Part shown: positions 1,727 to 11,757 of the stretch, in pieces
How positions within the stretch are numbered: position 1 is the stretch's first letter
Layout: each line of letters begins with the position of its first letter
Assembly: GCA_001399705.1 (NCBI GenBank)
Contig: LJCR01000031.1
Span: forward strand, 1-11,757
Source of the DNA: Kouleothrix aurantiaca
GTDB taxonomy: Bacteria > Chloroflexota > Chloroflexia > Chloroflexales > Roseiflexaceae
Length of the DNA stretch: 11,757 nt
Reading direction: 5' to 3'
Translations under genes and position numbers: made by a program
The notes under the pieces: generated by a model
The model's database searches: none
Seen by the model: the letters and a program-made list of their open reading frames with translations, nothing else
Told to the model about the DNA's origin: nothing

Positions 1727-1900
1727 TCCTTCGACAAGCTCAGGGAAGCAGCAGGCAGCTTGCGTCTCAACCCGAAGTCAAAAGCAACGGATTGGACACG
1801 ATTGGCTGGTTGACAGGCAGCCCGCCGGCAGCAGTTCTACCACCATCGGCATGGTACTTGGCCGCGATGTTGCGAGCAGCGTTCAGGTCGGCATTGAGAT
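1727..1900 (-). ncRNA. Possible omega (right-end) RNA region of TnpB
   Basis: Known IS200/IS605 TnpB proteins use an RNA made from the 3' end of tnpB and the right end of the element, with the guide taken from the flanking DNA. By position, the matching region here is the last part of tnpB exon 2 plus the 1727-1766 tail, read on the minus strand. The guide would then come from the 3' end of the 1205-1726 gene, in antisense. No structure was verified and both ends are placeholders. The outer intron lies upstream of this region, so such an RNA could be made with or without splicing if processed from the 3' end. Confidence 0.25.
1728..1745. repeat. Short dispersed-type motif at the element's right end
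   Basis: CCTTCGACAAGCTCAGGG lies two bases after the stop of the 1205-1726 gene. From memory, this core is a widely dispersed short motif in many environmental bacterial genomes. I could not confirm this here and it occurs once in the window. It may be an independent intergenic repeat or part of the right end of the tnpB element. A weak hairpin, AAGC paired with GCTT on the minus strand, lies between it and the tnpB stop. The annotation is tentative. Confidence 0.3.
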
Positions 1901-1988
1901 GAAATCCACACTGCCGACATTTGAAGACGCTCTGGGAACGGCGGTTGGTGCGGGCACGATGCCCACAGCAGCTACATGTCTGCGAGGT
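1767..1988 (-). CDS. tnpB: TnpB RNA-guided nuclease, exon 2 (C-terminal zinc ribbon and RuvC-III)
   Basis: This is the C-terminal 73 residues of TnpB, read from 1988 down to the TGA at 1769-1767. It has no start codon and makes sense only when joined to exon 1. It begins TSQTCSCCGH, exactly the residues that follow VDPRH in TnpB proteins. It contains the zinc ribbon (CSCC, then CRQC) and the RuvC-III motif LNADLNAARNI with the catalytic Asp (residue 346 of the joined protein). The tail (GGRTAAGGLPVNQP) is typical of the family. Joining exon 1 and exon 2 keeps the frame without loss or gain of a residue, which is the best evidence that the interrupting segment is an intron and that the gene is not decayed. 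Confidence 0.92.
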   Translation of the reverse strand, partial: TSQTCSCCGHRARTNRRSQSVFKCRQCGFHLNADLNAARNIAAKYHADGGRTAAGGLPVNQPIVSNPLLLTSG

Positions 1989-1991
1989 GTC

Positions 1992-2026
1992 GGGTAGCAG
2001 GGCGGCATTGCTGCCACCCCGCCCCC
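1992..2026 (-). ncRNA. Domain VI of the outer group II intron, with branch-point adenosine
   Basis: Read 2026 to 1992, the strand folds into one hairpin. GGG (2026-2024) pairs with CCC (1994-1992), and GGCG pairs with TGCT with wobbles. GGGTGGC (2019-2013) pairs with GCCGCCC (2006-2000) around the six-base loop AGCAAT. The adenosine at 1995 is unpaired between the two lower helices and lies seven positions from the 3' end (1989), the usual place of the lariat branch point. This independently supports the 3' splice site chosen from the TnpB reading frame. Confidence 0.85.
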
Positions 2027-2029
2027 TAA

Positions 2030-2063
2030 GAACTGTACGGGCCAGTTTCCCGGCATACAGCTC
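2030..2063 (-). ncRNA. Domain V of the outer group II intron
   Basis: This is a 34-nt hairpin read 2063 to 2030. It starts GAGCTGTATGCC, has the GGAAAC tetraloop region, and ends CCGTACAGTTC. It carries the AGC triad and the paired GAGC/GTTC ends typical of bacterial group II domain V. The stop codon of the encoded protein (2073-2071) is only seven bases upstream, as expected for an ORF filling domain IV. A three-base linker (TTA) separates it from domain VI. Confidence 0.92.
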
Positions 2064-2070
2064 AAGCCGT

Positions 2071-2946
2071 TCAAACGCTCGTTTCCGAACGCGGTTTCGC
2101 TACGGCCTTTCCTTGACTATGGACCTGCATATGGCAATTGGGATGCAGCAGCATACAGTTCTCCGCTCGGTCGGTGCCTCCATGCGTGCGCCAAATCAGG
2201 TGATGACTATGCCATCCCGTGATCTCGCTGATCTTCTGGTTGCACACCGGGCAGAGCCCACCTTGCTCTTTCCAAAGGCGCAGCAGGCGTCTTCTCCCGC
2301 GCAGCTTCCCCCTCATCTTCACGTCCATACGTGCCTCAAAGTAGGGTTCCCACTCAGGATCGAACGGGTTGGCTTGGCCTTTGACTTTGCTGTGTCGTGT
2401 GATTGGCACGCTGCTGGCTTGAAACAAATGAACTGGACGCAGCTTCCCGCTTTTGCCGGGAACCTCGCCACGAAAGATCCAGGCTTGTCCTCCGACTGGC
2501 CGGAAGTAGCGCTTGCGCAGCCAGCCAGCCGATTTGCTCGGATGCCGTCGTTTGGCCCAGCGCCATATTTTCTCGAAGACCACATGGTCCACAGTGCTGA
2601 AGGTCTGCTTGCTCACGACGTGGCAGTGGTAGGTGGCCCAACCGCGGATGATTGGGTTGAGTTTCTGGATGACTTCGCCCGACGTCGCCTGCCGATTTCC
2701 CTTCAAGACCGTGCGCACTTGCTGGAACAGGGTTATGCGGCTCTTACCGGACGGTGTGATGAGCAGTTTGGTCTGTTTGCCGTTCCGATACTTGCGGATG
2801 TGCTGCCCCAGGAAGTCAAACCCGTCCGTGATATGCGTGAGGCTGGTTTTCTCTGGCGAAAGCGTCAAGCCTCGTTCGCTCATGAACTGCTCCACGAGCG
2901 GTCGGATTTCATCTCGCAACAGCGCTTCACTCGCGCCCGTGACGAT
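2071..2946 (-). CDS. ltrA: Outer-intron RT/maturase/HNH protein, exon 2 (C-terminal half)
   Basis: This is the C-terminal 291 residues of the outer intron's encoded protein, joined in frame to exon 1 at 6202-5366. It starts IVTGASEALL, the normal continuation of the YADDF active-site strand. Next come the RT-6/7 part (LSPEKT, then THITDGFDFLG, around residues 308-326 of the joined protein), the maturase domain X (IIRGWATYHCHVVSKQTF, about 378-395) and a DNA-binding region. Last is a C-terminal HNH endonuclease: CPVC at 511-514, HH at 527-528, ending NCHMQVH. Together the two parts make a 570-aa protein of ordinary family length with every domain present. The frame also runs about 36 codons upstream into inner-intron sequence, but those codons are domain VI and not protein. 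Confidence 0.9.
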   Translation of the reverse strand: MVTGASEALLRDEIRPLVEQFMSERGLTLSPEKTSLTHITDGFDFLGQHIRKYRNGKQTKLLITPSGKSRITLFQQVRTVLKGNRQATSGEVIQKLNPIIRGWATYHCHVVSKQTFSTVDHVVFEKIWRWAKRRHPSKSAGWLRKRYFRPVGGQAWIFRGEVPGKSGKLRPVHLFQASSVPITRHSKVKGQANPFDPEWEPYFEARMDVKMRGKLRGRRRLLRLWKEQGGLCPVCNQKISEITGWHSHHLIWRTHGGTDRAENCMLLHPNCHMQVHSQGKAVAKPRSETSV

Positions 2947-2949
2947 ATA

Positions 2950-3008
2950 CCAGTCGGAGACGGCGCTTGCCACCGGTTTCCCGGCAGTGCTGGACCCGCC
3001 TCCGCTGG
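2950..3008 (-). ncRNA. Domain VI of the inner group II intron, with branch-point adenosine
   Basis: Read 3008 to 2950, CCAGCGGAG at the 5' side pairs with CTCCG and CTGG at the 3' side. A single adenosine at 2954 is left bulged between those two segments, eight positions from the 3' end at 2947. The distal part of the stem is GC-rich. This places the 3' end after CTGGTAT and agrees with the frame needed to restore YADDF-IVTG, giving two independent lines of evidence for the same boundary. Confidence 0.85.
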
Positions 3009-3011
3009 CCC

Positions 3012-3045
3012 GAACCCGGCGTACACCTTTCGATCTACCGGGCTC
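3012..3045 (-). ncRNA. Domain V of the inner group II intron
   Basis: This is a 34-nt hairpin read 3045 to 3012. It begins GAGCCCGGTA, has a CGAAAG apical loop and ends GCCGGGTTC. GAGCCCGG pairs with CCGGGTTC, and the AGC triad and paired GAGC/GTTC ends are kept. Length and plan match the outer intron's domain V, but the sequence differs clearly. The two introns are therefore different lineages and not copies of one another. The encoded protein's TGA (3053-3051) is five bases upstream, and a three-base GGG linker leads to domain VI. Confidence 0.92.
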
Positions 3046-3050
3046 TCCCG

Positions 3051-4763
3051 TCAACGCTTAGCGCCATGCAGTCGGCGATGACAAGCAACACACACTGCGA
3101 GTGCTTGTTGCGGGTGATGTCGATGCGTCTCGTGCCAGGGTGGGTCGTGATGCACTTCGTCCACGAGTTGCGTGCCGCAGACTTCGCAAACTGCTGTTCT
3201 CATTCGCACCGCTGTTACCAGCCGGCGTTGTCCTATCCGGTCGCCTTCTTGTCCCGCCCAGACATGCTGGTCCCACCAGCATTCATCTCCGGTTCCGGGC
3301 GCGGGTAGCACGTCGGTGTGGATGTCGCCCAGGTAGGGATGGGGTGGATACCCCAGGCGTAGGGCTTTCCGTGGGATACCGCTGAGGCGCGGGATGCGAA
3401 CCGCCTGTTCGCCCATCATTGCCCCGAGGTGAAAGTAGCCAACCTCGCGTAGATGTGGCGGCAGTGTGTACATGCGGTAGACCGCCTTTGCACCCAATGT
3501 CCGCTGCTTCCGCCGACAGTAGCTCCAGATCTCGCGGTAGATGAAGCCGTCCAAGCTGTCCATCAGCCGACTTTCTGCTGCGTAGGCGTAGTAGTTGCCC
3601 CAGCCCCGGATCAGACCCGCCAGGGCCGTGAACGCGGCCACCTCATCAGTGAAGGTATAGCGCGTAATCTCCTTCACCGCGTCGCGGAAACGCCGGATTG
3701 CGCGCTCCGAGACCCGCGAGAAGAAGCACCACTGGCCATCACTCCAGCGTTTGTCGCCCTGCATGCGATACCCAAGAAAGTCGAACCCGTCGTCGATGTG
3801 GGTGATGAGGGTCTTCTCTTCTGACAACCGTAGATGGAGTTCGTCCGCCAGGAAAGTTTTAATCTCGGCCTTGATTTCCTCGGCCCGAGACCGACTGCCG
3901 TTCCAGACGGCGACCCAATCATCGGCATAACGAGTAAGCATGAGCGTGCCCCCAATTTCGGTTTTGCGGCGATATTGGAGAGATGAGGGCGCCAGATGTG
4001 CCCACTCGGGCCGGACGCGGTAGGTACGCAGATACCAGGCGTCAAACTCGTGGAGGAACACATTGGCCAGGACAGGGCTACAAACTGCCCCTTGCGGCGT
4101 CCCCGCCGACGGATAGGTCACCCGACCGTCCTCCCAAATGCCGCATCGCAGCATCGTGGTAATCAGGTCCAGGAACGTCTCGTCCTGTATCCGTTGTTTG
4201 AGAACCCGCCGCAAGAGCCGATGCTCGATTTCGTCGAAGCACGCCGCTATATCGCCCTCGATGATCCACTTGAAGCCCATGCGCGGGTCGCTTGTTGCGC
4301 GGCGGAGGGCGCTGAGGGCGTGGTGGGTGGACCGTAGGGGTCGGAACCCCCACGAGCAAGGAAGAAAGACACTCTCATAGATCGGCTCCAGGACCATCTT
4401 GACGGCGGCCTGAACAGTCCGGTCGCGGAGAGTGGCGATACCAAGCGGGCGTAGCTTGCCGTTGGCTTTAGGGATGTAGACGCGTTTGACCGGCTGCGGG
4501 TGGTAGGTTCCGGCCACCAACTCGGCGTGCAGTTGGTGAACCAGATTGCTCCGCCCGTCCGGATTGGTATCGAGACGTCCCTTGGTCACGCCGTCGAGAC
4601 CAGACGTACTGCTGCCTTTATTGGCCAGCACCGTTTCCAGTCCCGTGCGTAACCAGCCTTCGTCACAGACGAACCGATAGAGGCGCTTGTGCCGCTCGGC
4701 CGGTTGCGCGAGCGTGCGCTGTGCCAACTCGGTCTGGATTTTCAGGATTTGCGTCGTATCCAC
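3051..4763 (-). CDS. ltrA: Inner-intron reverse transcriptase/maturase/HNH endonuclease, intact
   Basis: This 570-aa protein helps fold and excise its own intron and would drive retrohoming. The start is GTG at 4763, preceded by AAAGG six bases away, with an in-frame TAA just upstream that excludes any earlier start. Domains in order: RT fingers with VKRVYIPKANGKLRPLGI (92-109), GDIAACFD (170-177), GTPQGAVCSPVLAN (221-234), the catalytic YADD (279-282), LSEEKT and DDGFDFLG (313-331), domain X around LIRGWGNYYAYAAESRL (384-400), and a C-terminal HNH. The HNH has CEVC (526-529), HH (538-539) and CVACHRRLH (558-566). No frameshift or missing key residue is seen. Its own active-site motif is YADDW, unlike the YADDF whose codons the intron occupies. 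Confidence 0.95.
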   Translation of the reverse strand: MDTTQILKIQTELAQRTLAQPAERHKRLYRFVCDEGWLRTGLETVLANKGSSTSGLDGVTKGRLDTNPDGRSNLVHQLHAELVAGTYHPQPVKRVYIPKANGKLRPLGIATLRDRTVQAAVKMVLEPIYESVFLPCSWGFRPLRSTHHALSALRRATSDPRMGFKWIIEGDIAACFDEIEHRLLRRVLKQRIQDETFLDLITTMLRCGIWEDGRVTYPSAGTPQGAVCSPVLANVFLHEFDAWYLRTYRVRPEWAHLAPSSLQYRRKTEIGGTLMLTRYADDWVAVWNGSRSRAEEIKAEIKTFLADELHLRLSEEKTLITHIDDGFDFLGYRMQGDKRWSDGQWCFFSRVSERAIRRFRDAVKEITRYTFTDEVAAFTALAGLIRGWGNYYAYAAESRLMDSLDGFIYREIWSYCRRKQRTLGAKAVYRMYTLPPHLREVGYFHLGAMMGEQAVRIPRLSGIPRKALRLGYPPHPYLGDIHTDVLPAPGTGDECWWDQHVWAGQEGDRIGQRRLVTAVRMRTAVCEVCGTQLVDEVHHDPPWHETHRHHPQQALAVCVACHRRLHGAKR

Positions 4764-5365
4764 GACTAACCTTTATTCCATTGGAGTGGCGGTTGACCTG
4801 GCTCCCTTCGCCCTGTGACGGCGCTACCGTCTCCGTGGCCGGACGTGACCCCGGCGACTACTATGGAGCCTCTGCCCTGCGCGCCCCGATCACCTGAAGC
4901 GAGGTCAGCCGCCACCGATTGGTGGTGAGGCAGGATGCGCGCAGTTCCCACGTTCCTATGCGGAGCCTCGAACAGACGGACGTAGGTCACCGTCAAGCCC
5001 CTTTGGTGCAGCAGCACCCTCGGGTTCGGTGGTCCCTCCTGGTGTCGTAGGGAGAGACCATAGCCGACTGGACAGCGTTCCCTGGGCGACTTCACCCCAG
5101 GTACCGAACCCTCCTGGCGTGTCAGCCGCTTACGCCAGGTTCGCGGTAGAGAGGCCACGGTTTCGACGTGATTGCCTGACCATATCCGTCCTTAGCCTGG
5201 TGCCATTCCAGGGATGTGCGACTTCCCCGGTTTGACCCTTGTGTCTCCCCCGGCGAGCCCTCGCCTCCCGGTTGCTCGACCGAAAGGCTAGGGGGATAGG
5301 CTTACCGCTCTACGACCAGCAGCAGGTGCTCGCGCACCATGCTCCGCATAAGCCTCGTGGCGCAC
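4764..5365 (-). ncRNA. 5' ribozyme portion (domains I-IV start) of the inner group II intron
   Basis: These 602 nt between the 5' splice site and the encoded protein hold no credible gene. They should form domains I to III and the start of domain IV. One element can be recognised. CCTGGG and CCCAGG form a perfect 6-bp stem around the loop GTGAAGTCG (on the minus strand, near 5099-5079). In the loop, GAAGTCG (5093-5087) can pair with the last seven exon bases CGATTTC, with one G-U pair. Such a loop is what exon-binding site 1 should look like, and it lies about 273-279 nt from the intron start, a usual distance. The rest was not folded. Confidence 0.75.
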
Positions 5366-6202
5366 GAAATCGTCAGCATACCGTACCACGTTAATCTTGG
5401 CTTGCTGCCCACGCCGGGTGGTTGGCGGATGTCGTTGGCGAACTGCCCGTTCCAGGCCGTCAAGCGCCAGATTGGCGAGGACAGGCGAGATTATTCCCCC
5501 CTGTGGCGTGCCTGCCTCGCTGGTGTGAAGGACGTGTCGGTCCATGTAACCCGCCTTCAGCCACTTCCGCAATATGGCTTTGTCCATTGGTATGTGGGCC
5601 AAGAGCCAGTCGTGACTGATTCGGTCAAAGCAGGCTTGGATGTCGCCCTCCAGGATCCATTGCGGCGACGCCTTCTTGGCCAGCGTGATGAAGCATTGCT
5701 CGATGGCGTCGGCGGTAGAGCGTTCAACCCGAAAGCCGTAGGAGTTCGGGTCGCCAGTCGTCTCCGCAACCGGGTTGAGGGCCAGCAGGTAGAGTGCTTG
5801 CATGGCCCGGTCGTGCATGGTTGGGATACCCAAGGGGCGTTGTTTGCCGTTGCTTTTCGGAATGTACACGCGCCGCAGCGGTTTAGGGTGATAGCAGCGG
5901 TGGCGCAACGCTTGTATGGCGGCGGCCTTCGTTTCTGGCGTTTCCCAGGTCACTTGGTCGACGCCAGGGGTCCGTTTGCCCTGGTTTTCCGTCACCCGTT
6001 TGACGGCAAGGGCTTTGCCGCTGAACGAGTGGGTCAGCAGCCGTTGCAGGGCTTTGACCTTGCCCCAGCGGCCTTCCTGCGTTGCCTTCACGATACGCGC
6101 TTGGAGCCGACGCACGTTTTGGTGGGCCTGTTGCCAGTCGATGGCGTGCCAGGCCACCTGCTCGTGGGGAGCCGCACCAGCCTGCCGAGGCATTGCCGTC
6201 AT
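5366..6202 (-). CDS. ltrA: Outer-intron RT/maturase/HNH protein, exon 1 (N-terminal half)
   Basis: This is residues 1-279 of the outer intron's protein. The start is ATG 6202, with AAGGGAG (6217-6211) eight bases upstream. It holds the N-terminal RT region typical of the family ([19 protein letters not shown], 45-63), [18 protein letters not shown] (110-127), EGDIQACFD (185-193), [15 protein letters not shown] (231-245) and YADDF (275-279). Coding stops making sense exactly after YADDF, where the inner intron starts. Without splicing, translation runs on for about 25 foreign residues to a TAG at 5290-5288. That would give a 304-aa product with the catalytic aspartates but no thumb, domain X or HNH. 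After splicing the protein continues with IVTGASEALL. Confidence 0.93.
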
Positions 6203-6814
6203 CTGCTTTGCTCCCTTGGTCGGTTAGCCAAACTTTCTCGTGACGAACGACCCGTCGGAAGTCTGCCCGCTTTCGCGTCGGATGATGTTGCTCGTGGCTC
6301 AACCCGTATCCGCCTTATTACAAAGCGGCATTCGCTTGCTCCGACATCCTGTACCCGCACCGCGTGTGGCTGGTCTTGCGACGAGCTTACCCAAAGGGAG
6401 CGATACGGGCTTACCGTGTTCCGCCGCCAGAACGCTGATGGGGTAGGTCCGCTCTATTCACCGGCAGTACTGATGCCCATGACACAGGACGACAACAACC
6501 TGTGTGCCGACTGCGTAGCCTTTTGGCTCAAGCCTGACAGCGCCTTTGGCTCGTTAGACCTTACGATGTTTATCAAGCGTTCGCATATGCTGACCATACC
6601 ATCGACCCTAGGCCCTGTCCGTCGTGGCGCTGACAGACGCACTATTGCCTCACGGCGCCGGTGCCAGTCTTGCGACTGCGGGTACATTGTCCGAGGGCTT
6701 CGCACAGTTCGTTACCTAGCTGCACTACCTCGTAGGGTACTGCTGATGGGACAGCAGGTTCTGTCAGAGCAACGCGCTCAGCAGAACAATTCTGGCGGCG
6801 ACTTCACGTCGCAC
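6203..6814 (-). ncRNA. 5' ribozyme portion (domains I-IV start) of the outer group II intron
   Basis: These 612 nt lie between the 5' splice site and the encoded protein and contain no credible gene. A 7-bp hairpin is visible on the minus strand (6505-6482, arms ACACAGG/CCTGTGT) with the loop TTGTTGTCGT, about 317-326 nt from the intron start. Its TGTCG can pair with CGACA of the 5' exon, whose last bases are GCGACAT, leaving the final T unpaired. This is the best candidate for exon-binding site 1. A second, unstructured sequence complementary to all six of CGACAT occurs at 6342-6347. Domains II and III should fill the remainder; I did not fold them. Confidence 0.7.
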
Positions 6815-7750
6815 ATGTCGCGGGTCAACCGCAACCACCGTACAGCCCCGTTCCTCGGCTTTGTACCTGATAAAGCCCTTGAGTTGGGCGAACGACCAGG
6901 AGTGCATTCGGCGCTTGGTTTTGGTACGCCGTTTGGCCTTCATTCGCCGTCTGATGTCCTTGAGGTTTTCCAGCACGATCGTTCCGCCCGGCGGAGCCGC
7001 CTGAACGATCTGCTTGGAGAGTATATGATCGCAGTCGCGGCGGAAGCGTCTCTGTCGGTGGCGGAGGAGCTTGAGATGCCGTTTTGCGCTGCGTGTGCCT
7101 TTCTTTTGCAATGCTCGCTTGAGATGAAACAGCCGACCTTCGATTGCCTTCCACGCCTTCTTGCCCAAGAAGCGGTTGCTGCTCGTCACAGCGGGACGGC
7201 TGATGCCCAGATCGACGCCAACGACTTGATCAGTCGGCTCGACCTGTGGGGCAGGAACCGTAACGACGATATGCAGCCACCAATGGCCATCCCGCTCAAC
7301 CAGATCGGCGGTATCGGTGGGATAACCCGCATACTTGGCGCTGAAGGAGGGAATACGAAAACGGATCGTCTGCCGCCCGCCCACAAGCGACATACGCACG
7401 GTTTGGCTTTCCCAATCGACCCGGTAGGTGTGAACGTTGTAGCGCGGCGGGCAGGCAAGAGAGCGTGGTTGACTGACCTTCCGGCCAGCGCGTCGGAGCG
7501 CGAGCGCGCTTTTGACTGCCTCGGTGGCTTTGACGCGCGCCTGCACATGCAGGTCACTCACCAGGGCCGGATAGTCGGCTTTGACCGGATAGTACAACGC
7601 ACGGTGCAACTCGATCCCGTTCTTCTCGCTCTGCTGCCAGCCATAGGCGCACACAGCGTTAAAGACCGCCGTAAACTGGCGGCTGGTTTCTGCGAGCATG
7701 GTAGCCTGGGTAGGCGACGGCTCAAGTCGGATACGGATCGTGCGCTGCAT
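6815..7750 (-). CDS. tnpB: TnpB RNA-guided nuclease, exon 1 (N-terminal 312 residues)
   Basis: TnpB is the IS200/IS605 accessory nuclease, an ancestor-like relative of Cas12, that cuts DNA with an element-derived guide RNA. ATG 7750 is chosen because MQRTIRIRLEPSPTQ is the usual family N-terminus. Upstream codons open to 7855 lie in the promoter and flank. Motifs seen: the N-terminal fold, RuvC-I VVGVDLGISRPA with Asp 180, a basic Arg/Lys helix region (about 200-285), RuvC-II TIVLENL with Glu 261, and the lead-in VVAVDPRH at the end. The sequence then becomes intron. Unspliced translation adds about 16 residues and stops at 6764, which lacks the zinc ribbon and last RuvC Asp and so should be inactive. 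Joined to exon 2 the protein is 385 aa, a normal length. Confidence 0.93.
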
Positions 7751-9621: not shown

Positions 9622-10146
9622 ATGAACCTCGAAGACGCCTTTTTGTTCGCAGCTCAGGCCCACCGGGGCCAGGTGGATAAGCAGGGGCAGCCGTATATTT
9701 TGCACCTGATGACGGTTGTGCTGGCCTGCGACGAGGCTGACCGCGTCGTCGCCGCGCTGCACGACGTGGTCGAAGATCGCCACGCCACGTTGGAGGAGCT
9801 GCGGGCCCGCGGCGTGAGCGAGGGCGACCTGATCGTCCTTGATGCGCTCTCGCGCCGGCCGAAGGAGTCGTACCGCGACTATATCCTGCGGCTGCTCGGC
9901 ACGCCGCGAGCAATCAGGATCAAGGCCCGCGACCTGGACCACAACTTTGGCCGCTTGAGCGGTCTCGCGCCGCGCGACCAGCTCCGGCTCGGCCCACGCT
10001 ACGCCGCCGCGATCGGAGCGCTGATCGCCCTGAGCGGCGGCGCCGTTCAGCTCGACCAGTTCAGTGCCGCGACTCGCGAGCAGCACGCCCGGTTTGCCGC
10101 GCATGCCGGCGACTTCTTGCGCGAGGCGCAGCCAGTACGCTCCTGA
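9622..10146 (+). CDS. Small HD-domain hydrolase of the (p)ppGpp-hydrolase (SpoT/MESH1) type
   Basis: This 174-aa protein has the layout of stand-alone HD hydrolases related to the N-terminal domain of SpoT. Seen: AAQAHRGQVDKQGQPYILH with His 14 and His 28, ALHDVVED with His 47-Asp 48 and Glu 51-Asp 52, LSRRPKESYRDYILR (77-91), and KARDLDHN with Asp 104 and Asn 108 in the position of the family's last metal-binding segment. In this family these residues hold a manganese ion and remove pyrophosphate from (p)ppGpp. MESH1-type members may use other nucleotides such as NADPH. No synthetase, TGS or ACT domain follows. ATG 9622 has GAGGA eight bases upstream, and the previous stop ends two bases before it. 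It is the last gene of the small-gene cluster. Substrate is inferred from family resemblance only. Confidence 0.8.
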   Translation: MNLEDAFLFAAQAHRGQVDKQGQPYILHLMTVVLACDEADRVVAALHDVVEDRHATLEELRARGVSEGDLIVLDALSRRPKESYRDYILRLLGTPRAIRIKARDLDHNFGRLSGLAPRDQLRLGPRYAAAIGALIALSGGAVQLDQFSAATREQHARFAAHAGDFLREAQPVRS

Positions 10147-10755: not shown

Positions 10756-11757
10756 TCAATAACTTTCGCCCGAGCGCCGCACGATCTCGGCCAGCCGTCC
10801 CCTCACCCGCTCAATATCGCCGTGCCCCGCCGCGAGTTGCGCCTCGTAGACCGCCAGCGCCCGCTCGAAGTAGGATTGCGCGCCAGGCTCATCGCCCTGA
10901 GCATACAGGAGATCGCCAAGCGCCGCACATTTCCAGGCGCTTTCGATATGGTCGCGTCCGAGGGCCAGCTCACAGATCGCCAGTGCTCGCTCCAGGTAGG
11001 CGCGCGCCCCAGCGAAATCTCCTTGATCGCAGAGCAGCATGCCCAGGTTTTTCAGGCTTTGCGCGGTATGGAAATGCGACACGCCGAGCACCGCCTCGCG
11101 CATCGCCAGCGCTCGCTCGTGGTAGCGCCGGGCACCGATATAATCGCCCTGTGCATAGAGTACCTCACCCAGCTCGTTCAGCGTCTGCGCCGTTGCGGTG
11201 TGGTTGGGCGTGAGTATCTGCTCGCGAATCGCTAGCGTCAGTTTGAGGTAGCGCCGGGCGGCGGCGGGCCTGTCCACTTTGAACATCAGGTAGCCAAGAT
11301 TGTTCAGTGTCCGCGCGGTGTCGGCATGCCTGAGGCCGAGCAGGCGCCGCCGAACCGCCAGCGCCCGCTGCAGATAGGGAAAGGCATCGTGATAGCTCCC
11401 CTGGTAGCACAGGAGGTGTCCCAGATTGTTATAACCGTGCGCCGTATCGAGGTGATCTGGCCCCCGTGTTTGTTCCCAGATCGCCAGCGCGCGGTCGTAC
11501 AAACGGTGCGCCTCAGCGAGATGCCCTTGGTAATCGCAAAGCAGACCCAAGCGATTGAGGGCTGCGGCTGTATCCGGGTGGTCGTATGCGAGCACGGCTT
11601 CACGGATGGCGAGCGCCCGAGCGAGGTAGGGCCGGGCCTCCTCGTAGGCGCTCAACAATACGAGCTGCCACCCCAGCTCCGCACAGAGATCAGCCGCGCG
11701 TACGTCGCCTCTCGGCATCGCGGCGTCGGCTATAGCGCGCACGTGCTGCTGGAGCGC
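10756..11757 (-). CDS. Tetratricopeptide-repeat protein, C-terminal part (5' end outside window)
   Basis: The frame is open to the window edge (ALQQHVRAIADAAM begins before any needed start), so at least 333 residues are only the C-terminal part of a larger protein. It consists of about seven TPR units of 42 residues: a partial first unit, then units beginning HPDTAAALNRLG, HLDTAHGYNNLG, HADTARTLNNLG, HTATAQTLNELG, HFHTAQSLKNLG and HIESAWKCAALG. Each ends in A..Y..RALAI.E..LG and the array closes with a short cap. This is the kinesin-light-chain/TPR_12 type, often the sensor or scaffold half of bacterial NB-ARC (STAND) or CHAT-protease proteins. Which one cannot be told here. TPRs bind proteins or peptides. 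At the DNA level the units form a degenerate 126-bp tandem repeat. Confidence 0.9.
   Translation of the reverse strand, partial: ALQQHVRAIADAAMPRGDVRAADLCAELGWQLVLLSAYEEARPYLARALAIREAVLAYDHPDTAAALNRLGLLCDYQGHLAEAHRLYDRALAIWEQTRGPDHLDTAHGYNNLGHLLCYQGSYHDAFPYLQRALAVRRRLLGLRHADTARTLNNLGYLMFKVDRPAAARRYLKLTLAIREQILTPNHTATAQTLNELGEVLYAQGDYIGARRYHERALAMREAVLGVSHFHTAQSLKNLGMLLCDQGDFAGARAYLERALAICELALGRDHIESAWKCAALGDLLYAQGDEPGAQSYFERALAVYEAQLAAGHGDIERVRGRLAEIVRRSGESY

Follow-up and report, generated by a model that had tools for sequence, protein, structure and literature searches.

The question raised by the stretch of DNA analysed here (the window, 11,757 nt in length) is whether a group II intron found inside the RT gene of another group II intron arrived there by accident, or whether it belongs to a lineage that seeks out such genes. 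The window is a whole contig of a MAG of 7.8 Mb in 3843 contigs, with 83.5% completeness and 7.5% contamination, and its minus strand carries three layers, namely a TnpB gene, an outer group II intron within it and an inner group II intron within the outer one. An earlier note on this DNA saw a rare nested pair; the recurrence of the site across the family of the inner intron went unseen. Judging from the sequences compared here, we consider the inner element likely to belong to a lineage of mobile group II introns that home into RT genes at their YxDD codons, largely by EBS pairing.

Three layers on one strand

The layers comprise the following features of the window.

6815..7750, minus strand: TnpB 5' exon, ending DPRH (OrfB_IS605 at 30.2 bits, cut-off 30.5; partial TNB match)
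1989..6814, minus strand: outer group II intron, starting GTGCG and ending CCGAC (Rfam RF02012 and RF00029; exon continuity)
6611..6758, minus strand: outer intron domain I-IV segment (RF02012, 93.5 bits)
5366..6202, minus strand: outer IEP N-half, 279 codons, with VRYADDF at its end (Pfam RVT_N, RVT_1)
5366..5377, minus strand: target codons A-D-D-F, with candidate IBS2 (-12..-7) and candidate IBS1 (-6..-1)
2947..5365, minus strand: inner group II intron, 2419 nt (Rfam; same ends in L004)
5291..5365, minus strand: 5'-terminal 75 bases of the inner intron; read through, they give the 25-aa tail that served as probe in the census
5087..5093, minus strand: candidate EBS1 GAAGTCG, intron 273-279, in a hairpin loop (7/7 pairs, one G-U)
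5063..5068, minus strand: candidate EBS2 GTCGGC, intron 298-303 (6/6 pairs, one G-U; by itself at chance level)
3051..4763, minus strand: inner IEP, 570 aa, with its own YADDW (RVT_1, GIIM; best PDB match LtrA)
3012..3045, minus strand: inner domain V (RF00029 alignment)
2947..3010, minus strand: inner domain VI, in which 2954 is the candidate branch A (RF00029 alignment)
2071..2946, minus strand: outer IEP C-half, with IVTG at its start (Pfam GIIM, HNH)
1989..2065, minus strand: outer domain V/VI (RF00029, 61.1 bits)
1767..1988, minus strand: TnpB 3' exon with the zinc ribbon, resuming TSQTCSCCG (joined translation)

When joined, the two TnpB exons form a single frame across the zinc ribbon, which bears out the claim of the earlier note that the host is a transposon gene. 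Likewise, the outer IEP is cut after YADDF and resumes with IVTG just as that note had it (N-half 6202-5366, C-half 2946-2071), and without the inner intron its halves give a continuous protein of the predicted 570 aa with all the domains claimed (RVT_N, RVT_1, GIIM and HNH). The joined protein aligns through to an uninterrupted IEP of the outer type from the same genome (L001:2-1573), with 317 of 523 positions identical (61%) and no break at the junction. In this uninterrupted relative FADA replaces YADD, and given that change it is probably without RT activity. Elsewhere in the window a TPR-like repeat protein (10756-11742, minus strand) and an HD-like protein (9622-10146, plus strand) were recognised by eye.

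The inner intron and its relatives

The inner intron begins with GTGCGCCACGAG, carrying GTGCG at its 5' end (group II consensus GTGYG), and ends with ACTGGTAT. Its length and its GTGCG are as proposed earlier from the letters alone, and the domain V (3045-3012) and the branch A (2954) proposed with them agree with the Rfam alignment. The covariance-model search that had been suggested as a check finds two domain V/VI pairs on the minus strand, the outer at 61.1 bits and the inner (3047-2947) at 39.0 bits with E 6.9e-5, where the gathering score is 40; the corresponding region of L004, a cyanobacterial relative discussed below, scores 27.9 bits (E 0.015, RF00029). The inner element has domains V and VI with a bulged A and a 3' end of AY, as a group II intron does. 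No Rfam D1-D4 model passes in its 5' half, where the sole match (13.5 bits, E 9.2) is at chance level. This 5' half shows 85% mean column identity to that of L004, and in a two-sequence fold of window and L004, 33 of 162 pairs are kept through changes on both sides.

The inner IEP is an intron-encoded RT/maturase, with LtrA as its best PDB match (E 5.7e-57). Of the RT, maturase and HNH parts once ascribed to it the first two stand, Pfam calling RVT_1 and GIIM, but no HNH domain is called; a C-terminal Cys/His pattern is invariant in 25 of 25 aligned sequences (the inner IEP and 24 family proteins). Inner and outer IEPs share 32% identity over 399 aligned positions, and a tree of 25 rows places the nine close rows together with full support, clearly separate from the outer IEP, in keeping with the proposal of two introns of different lineage.

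A protein search with the inner IEP matched 7786 of 7999 scored candidates. Among the best 120 of these matches, P0001-P0119 lie at 58-95% identity, followed by P0120 at 38%. A scan of genome contigs, of low recall since it relied on six exact 8-residue words from one sequence, returned one relative, L004, a cyanobacterial contig with a 72% identical IEP. In viral contigs no close relative was found by single protein, DNA pattern or alignment, the last giving 71 loci with a best segment identity of 41% and a best full match of 39%. At least 5000 plasmid records match, none reaching 60% identity among the matches listed, and 72 phage records match, all below 60%. Across overlapping genome sets (149, at E 1e-60; 387, 399 and 28, at E 1e-130) the only close copies are those of the window and L004; in one of these sets, four genomes together gave six distant matches, at 37-41%.

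Where the family inserts

Read-through of the intron 5' end gives a tail of 25 aa that contains no RT residue, and this was used as query in a census of 5.8 billion proteins. In both the window and L004 this read-through extends the host protein by approximately VRHEA....HG.RAPAA.RRA..LSP, and the probe consisted of the tail only, everything outside it being masked. With a single tail, 14 of 36 candidates were hits at E<=10, and all 14 read YxDDx-tail. When seven tails were combined in a profile, 54 of 880 candidates were hits, comprising 51 RTs and three non-RT genes. The junction word is plain in 53 of the 54, and in 51 of these 53 the last residue is preceded by [YF]xDD (YADD in 36, FADD in 8, YVDD in 4, YMDD in 2 and YCDD in 1). 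Fifty of these 51 proteins are RTs, the exception being P0169, and the junction one residue past YxDD is found in diverse RTs. The end of a further RT, P0174, looks like the same junction in another frame. One hit, P0135, is apparently L004's own protein (its contig is equally long and its sequence ends alike), which leaves 53 additional hits. RTs were assigned from database Pfam annotation and our own scans, with P0122 lying below the Pfam cut-off and P0159 assigned by motifs alone.

The three non-RT hits are a protein with a weak SnoaL match (P0140, junction MVTDDV), an HTH protein named a transposase by its source (P0143, junction PHAQFY, not after DD), and an HTH-like ORF with the junction ISYADDL (P0169), interrupted right after a YADD-coding stretch. 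That two of the three follow DD-coding DNA hints that these are off-target insertions, and that DNA rather than genes would be recognised. The probe detects phase-0 junctions only, in ORFs of about 154-490 aa, and off-target insertions are therefore under-counted.

The junction was read at the DNA level in two members, the window and L004. The L004 intron begins GTGCGCCACGAGGC after IIRYADDT and stops before MVLFERED, so that the DNA reads YADDT, then GTGCGCCACGAG...GACTGATAT, then MVLF, one residue past the YADD of another RT. This host may also be an intron, to judge from a group-II-D1D4-6 match upstream; its RT is frameshifted upstream of the inserted intron. Taken together, nearly all the detected relatives lie in RT genes, which they interrupt at the catalytic-motif codons, and this pattern suggests a parasite specialised on other retroelements.

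The same observations bear on whether the window joins two introns that were never nested. A MAG so fragmented and contaminated (3843 contigs, 7.5%), with RT motifs as shared sequence, might be mis-assembled, but both junctions are exact and restore the frame of 570 aa. Since L004, on a contig from another phylum, has a junction of the same kind, as do the many truncated RTs among database proteins, we regard mis-assembly as most improbable.

One further idea, that the family protects its own RT genes through YADDW, was considered and set aside: W follows the motif in 23 of 25 aligned family IEPs and in 1 of 51 [YF]xDD junctions, but it is rare in distant loci too (4 of 76 motifs).

Host range

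Clustered at 45% identity, the host N-halves fall into 15 clusters, 12 of RTs and three of non-RT singletons, and the largest groups 31 host proteins together with the outer IEP of the window. Other hosts are of a different kind. P0127, for instance, has as its best PDB sequence match 8ub7 (E 8e-28), the DGR RT of a Bordetella phage. It is DGR-type by motif as well, with PIGNL[TS]SQ and Y[MV]DD, as are P0126, P0132, P0137, P0142 and P0152; the DGR signature given in the excerpts available of two published accounts is (I/V/L)GxxxSQ in RT domain 4, plus YxDD (PMC3521204, PMC4244168). Identical tails are found across RT types, P0126 and P0127 (DGR-type) sharing theirs with P0128 and P0129 (IEPs), and P0132 (DGR-type) sharing its tail with P0133. 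We considered P0133 as a CRISPR RT and rejected this, its best PDB matches being RTs of group II type, with Cas6-RT-Cas1 lower.

Identical tails in different RT types are expected if one intron lineage moved recently between them. This matters for a different account of the census, in which insertion is wide and copies at the catalytic site are those that persist, imprecise loss being punished there. A comparable assumption, that an inner intron is retained where its site is essential for the host intron, is made in a passage of published work (PMC4649490). Identical tails speak for recent spread rather than long retention, however, and P0169, a non-RT gene cut right after a YADD-coding stretch, points to recognition of DNA; we give such survivor bias little credence as compared with homing to the YxDD codons.

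Pairing between intron and target

The candidate EBS1 of the window pairs at 7 of 7 positions (one G-U) with CGATTTC at -7..-1. Two such EBS1 matches are found in the inner 5' half, a result reached by 1.5% of 1000 shuffles. The candidate EBS2, GTCGGC, pairs with the A-D codons in both the window and L004, though EBS2 matches are equally common in shuffles (P 0.52 for the window and 0.37 for L004). Within the 5' half of L004, only the aligned loop is complementary to CGATTTC. This loop shows no pairing with L004's own site, CGACACA (YADDT), and fits YADDF-type DNA instead; another 6-mer of L004, at intron 297, pairs with -7..-2. More distant relatives show pairing of their own close to this position in the intron: L006 pairs 9/9 with its own exon at intron 296, and the candidate EBS1 of L013, TTGCTTC at intron 313, pairs 7/7 (G-U allowed) with its own PQGG site.

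In the mechanism we propose, the spliced lariat and its own IEP would locate the site, largely by pairing EBS2 to the A-D codons and EBS1 to the D-F codons, pairing being the presumed cause of the specificity. Reverse splicing after the codon next to DD, followed by copying into DNA, would complete retrohoming. The insertion in the window is in phase 0, so that exact splicing should restore the host RT, whereas the unspliced host RT would terminate just past the catalytic aspartates. With the host RT truncated there, the outer element would depend on the inner intron splicing first.

It might instead be that the insertions chiefly silence other RTs, with the host RT seldom restored. The frameshift upstream of the intron in the host RT of L004 would suit this, as would the catalytic motif of the L013 host, which is YAYD; the outer IEP of the window is nevertheless intact across 570 aa, and P0136 has an L004-type host N-half in one frame. 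We consider silencing an unlikely account of the insertions, and homing with restoration of the host by splicing remains the reading we prefer.

The wider clade and chimeric IEPs

A sister intron with a 36% identical IEP lies in the same genome as L004 (L013:256-3917). It interrupts another IEP between PQGGV and TSPLLAN, and like the intron of the window it is thus in an RT gene, though at another motif, PQGG; the tree of 25 rows gives no placement of L013 relative to the YADD family. A scan of the flanks of 79 loci found two RT-like stretches on one strand in six (L004, L007, L011, L013, L029 and L048), of which L004 and L013 read as RT-gene twintrons. Most of the distant relatives examined are not in RT genes, and L006 and L007 are located in what we take to be radC, so that RT targeting would not be general in the wider clade. 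On a short contig, L016 (G056:C9:1-8069), two group II IEPs lie on one strand (L007 and L011), and this pair adjoins a gene that is presumably radC.

Such a distribution, with two RT-gene twintrons among six flagged loci of 79, speaks for a one-off twintron in the window, with no site preference. Fifty of the 54 hits of the blind census share the RT-motif junction, however, and we find this account scarcely tenable beside a lineage that homes to the YxDD codons.

Four of 119 family proteins (P0098, P0099, P0101 and P0108) are chimeras that combine a foreign N-part with the family C-part, joined near the same conserved motif of EGDIxxCFDEI type. Compared with 11 references, their N-parts are nearest to P0145 (50%), P0120 (59% and 50%) and the outer IEP of the window (64%), and P0099 and P0045, which come from contigs of equal length, are identical in sequence across much of the C-part. 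These chimeric IEPs are possibly the remains of collapsed twintrons, formed by recombination between a host half and the guest RT; assembly chimerism is an alternative source to be reckoned with. More tentatively still, and with more doubt than conviction, we can imagine a guild of hyperparasites whose guides are antisense to RT motifs (YxDD, and PQGG in the sister), riding many retroelements including DGRs and collapsing into chimeric RTs.

Relation to known nested introns

Nesting of this general kind is documented in the excerpts we draw on, which describe bacterial twintrons, inner introns in ORF regions, archaeal homing into related intron ORFs and nesting in mobile elements. One survey mentions a Wolbachia genome with nested introns and describes mobile elements, including group II introns or related genes, as frequent sites of group II intron nesting (PMC8919778, in part). 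For Thermosynechococcus elongatus, where TeI3 lies in TeI4, a passage by the authors counts insertion into mobile elements as a route of proliferation (PMC2882425). As in the window, a group II intron sits there in the ORF region of another intron at one conserved site, but those inner introns are described as ORF-less and lie between the first and second ATG of the IEP (PMC2882425, in part), whereas the inner intron here has an IEP, a catalytic-motif site and a family spread over several RT families. In Methanosarcina, nested introns are reported to show site-specific homing into the sequences of other group II introns or into RT genes (Dai and Zimmerly 2003, known here by its title and citing papers PMC4424553 and PMC1712230, in part); compared with what these convey, the hosts here include DGR-type RTs and unrelated IEP lineages. 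The Trichodesmium introns T.e.I7 and T.e.I8 are distantly related, each with an IEP, and lie in a protein gene, with sequential splicing shown; the inner one is 154 nt into the host intron and not at an RT motif, and in the excerpt available the authors are aware of no homolog elsewhere in bacteria (PMC4649490). In the open-licence literature we found no account of introns that have the catalytic RT motif YxDD as their special target. What appears to be new is the combination of ordinary group II intron parts with an unusual target.

A lineage that lands on the shared codons of the RT catalytic motif would gain targets in most other retroelements, and the retroelements so targeted would depend on splicing of the inner intron. 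The family offers a natural system in which the parasitism of retroelements by retroelements can be tested. It may also supply a target code for engineered introns, and may be a source of chimeric RTs.
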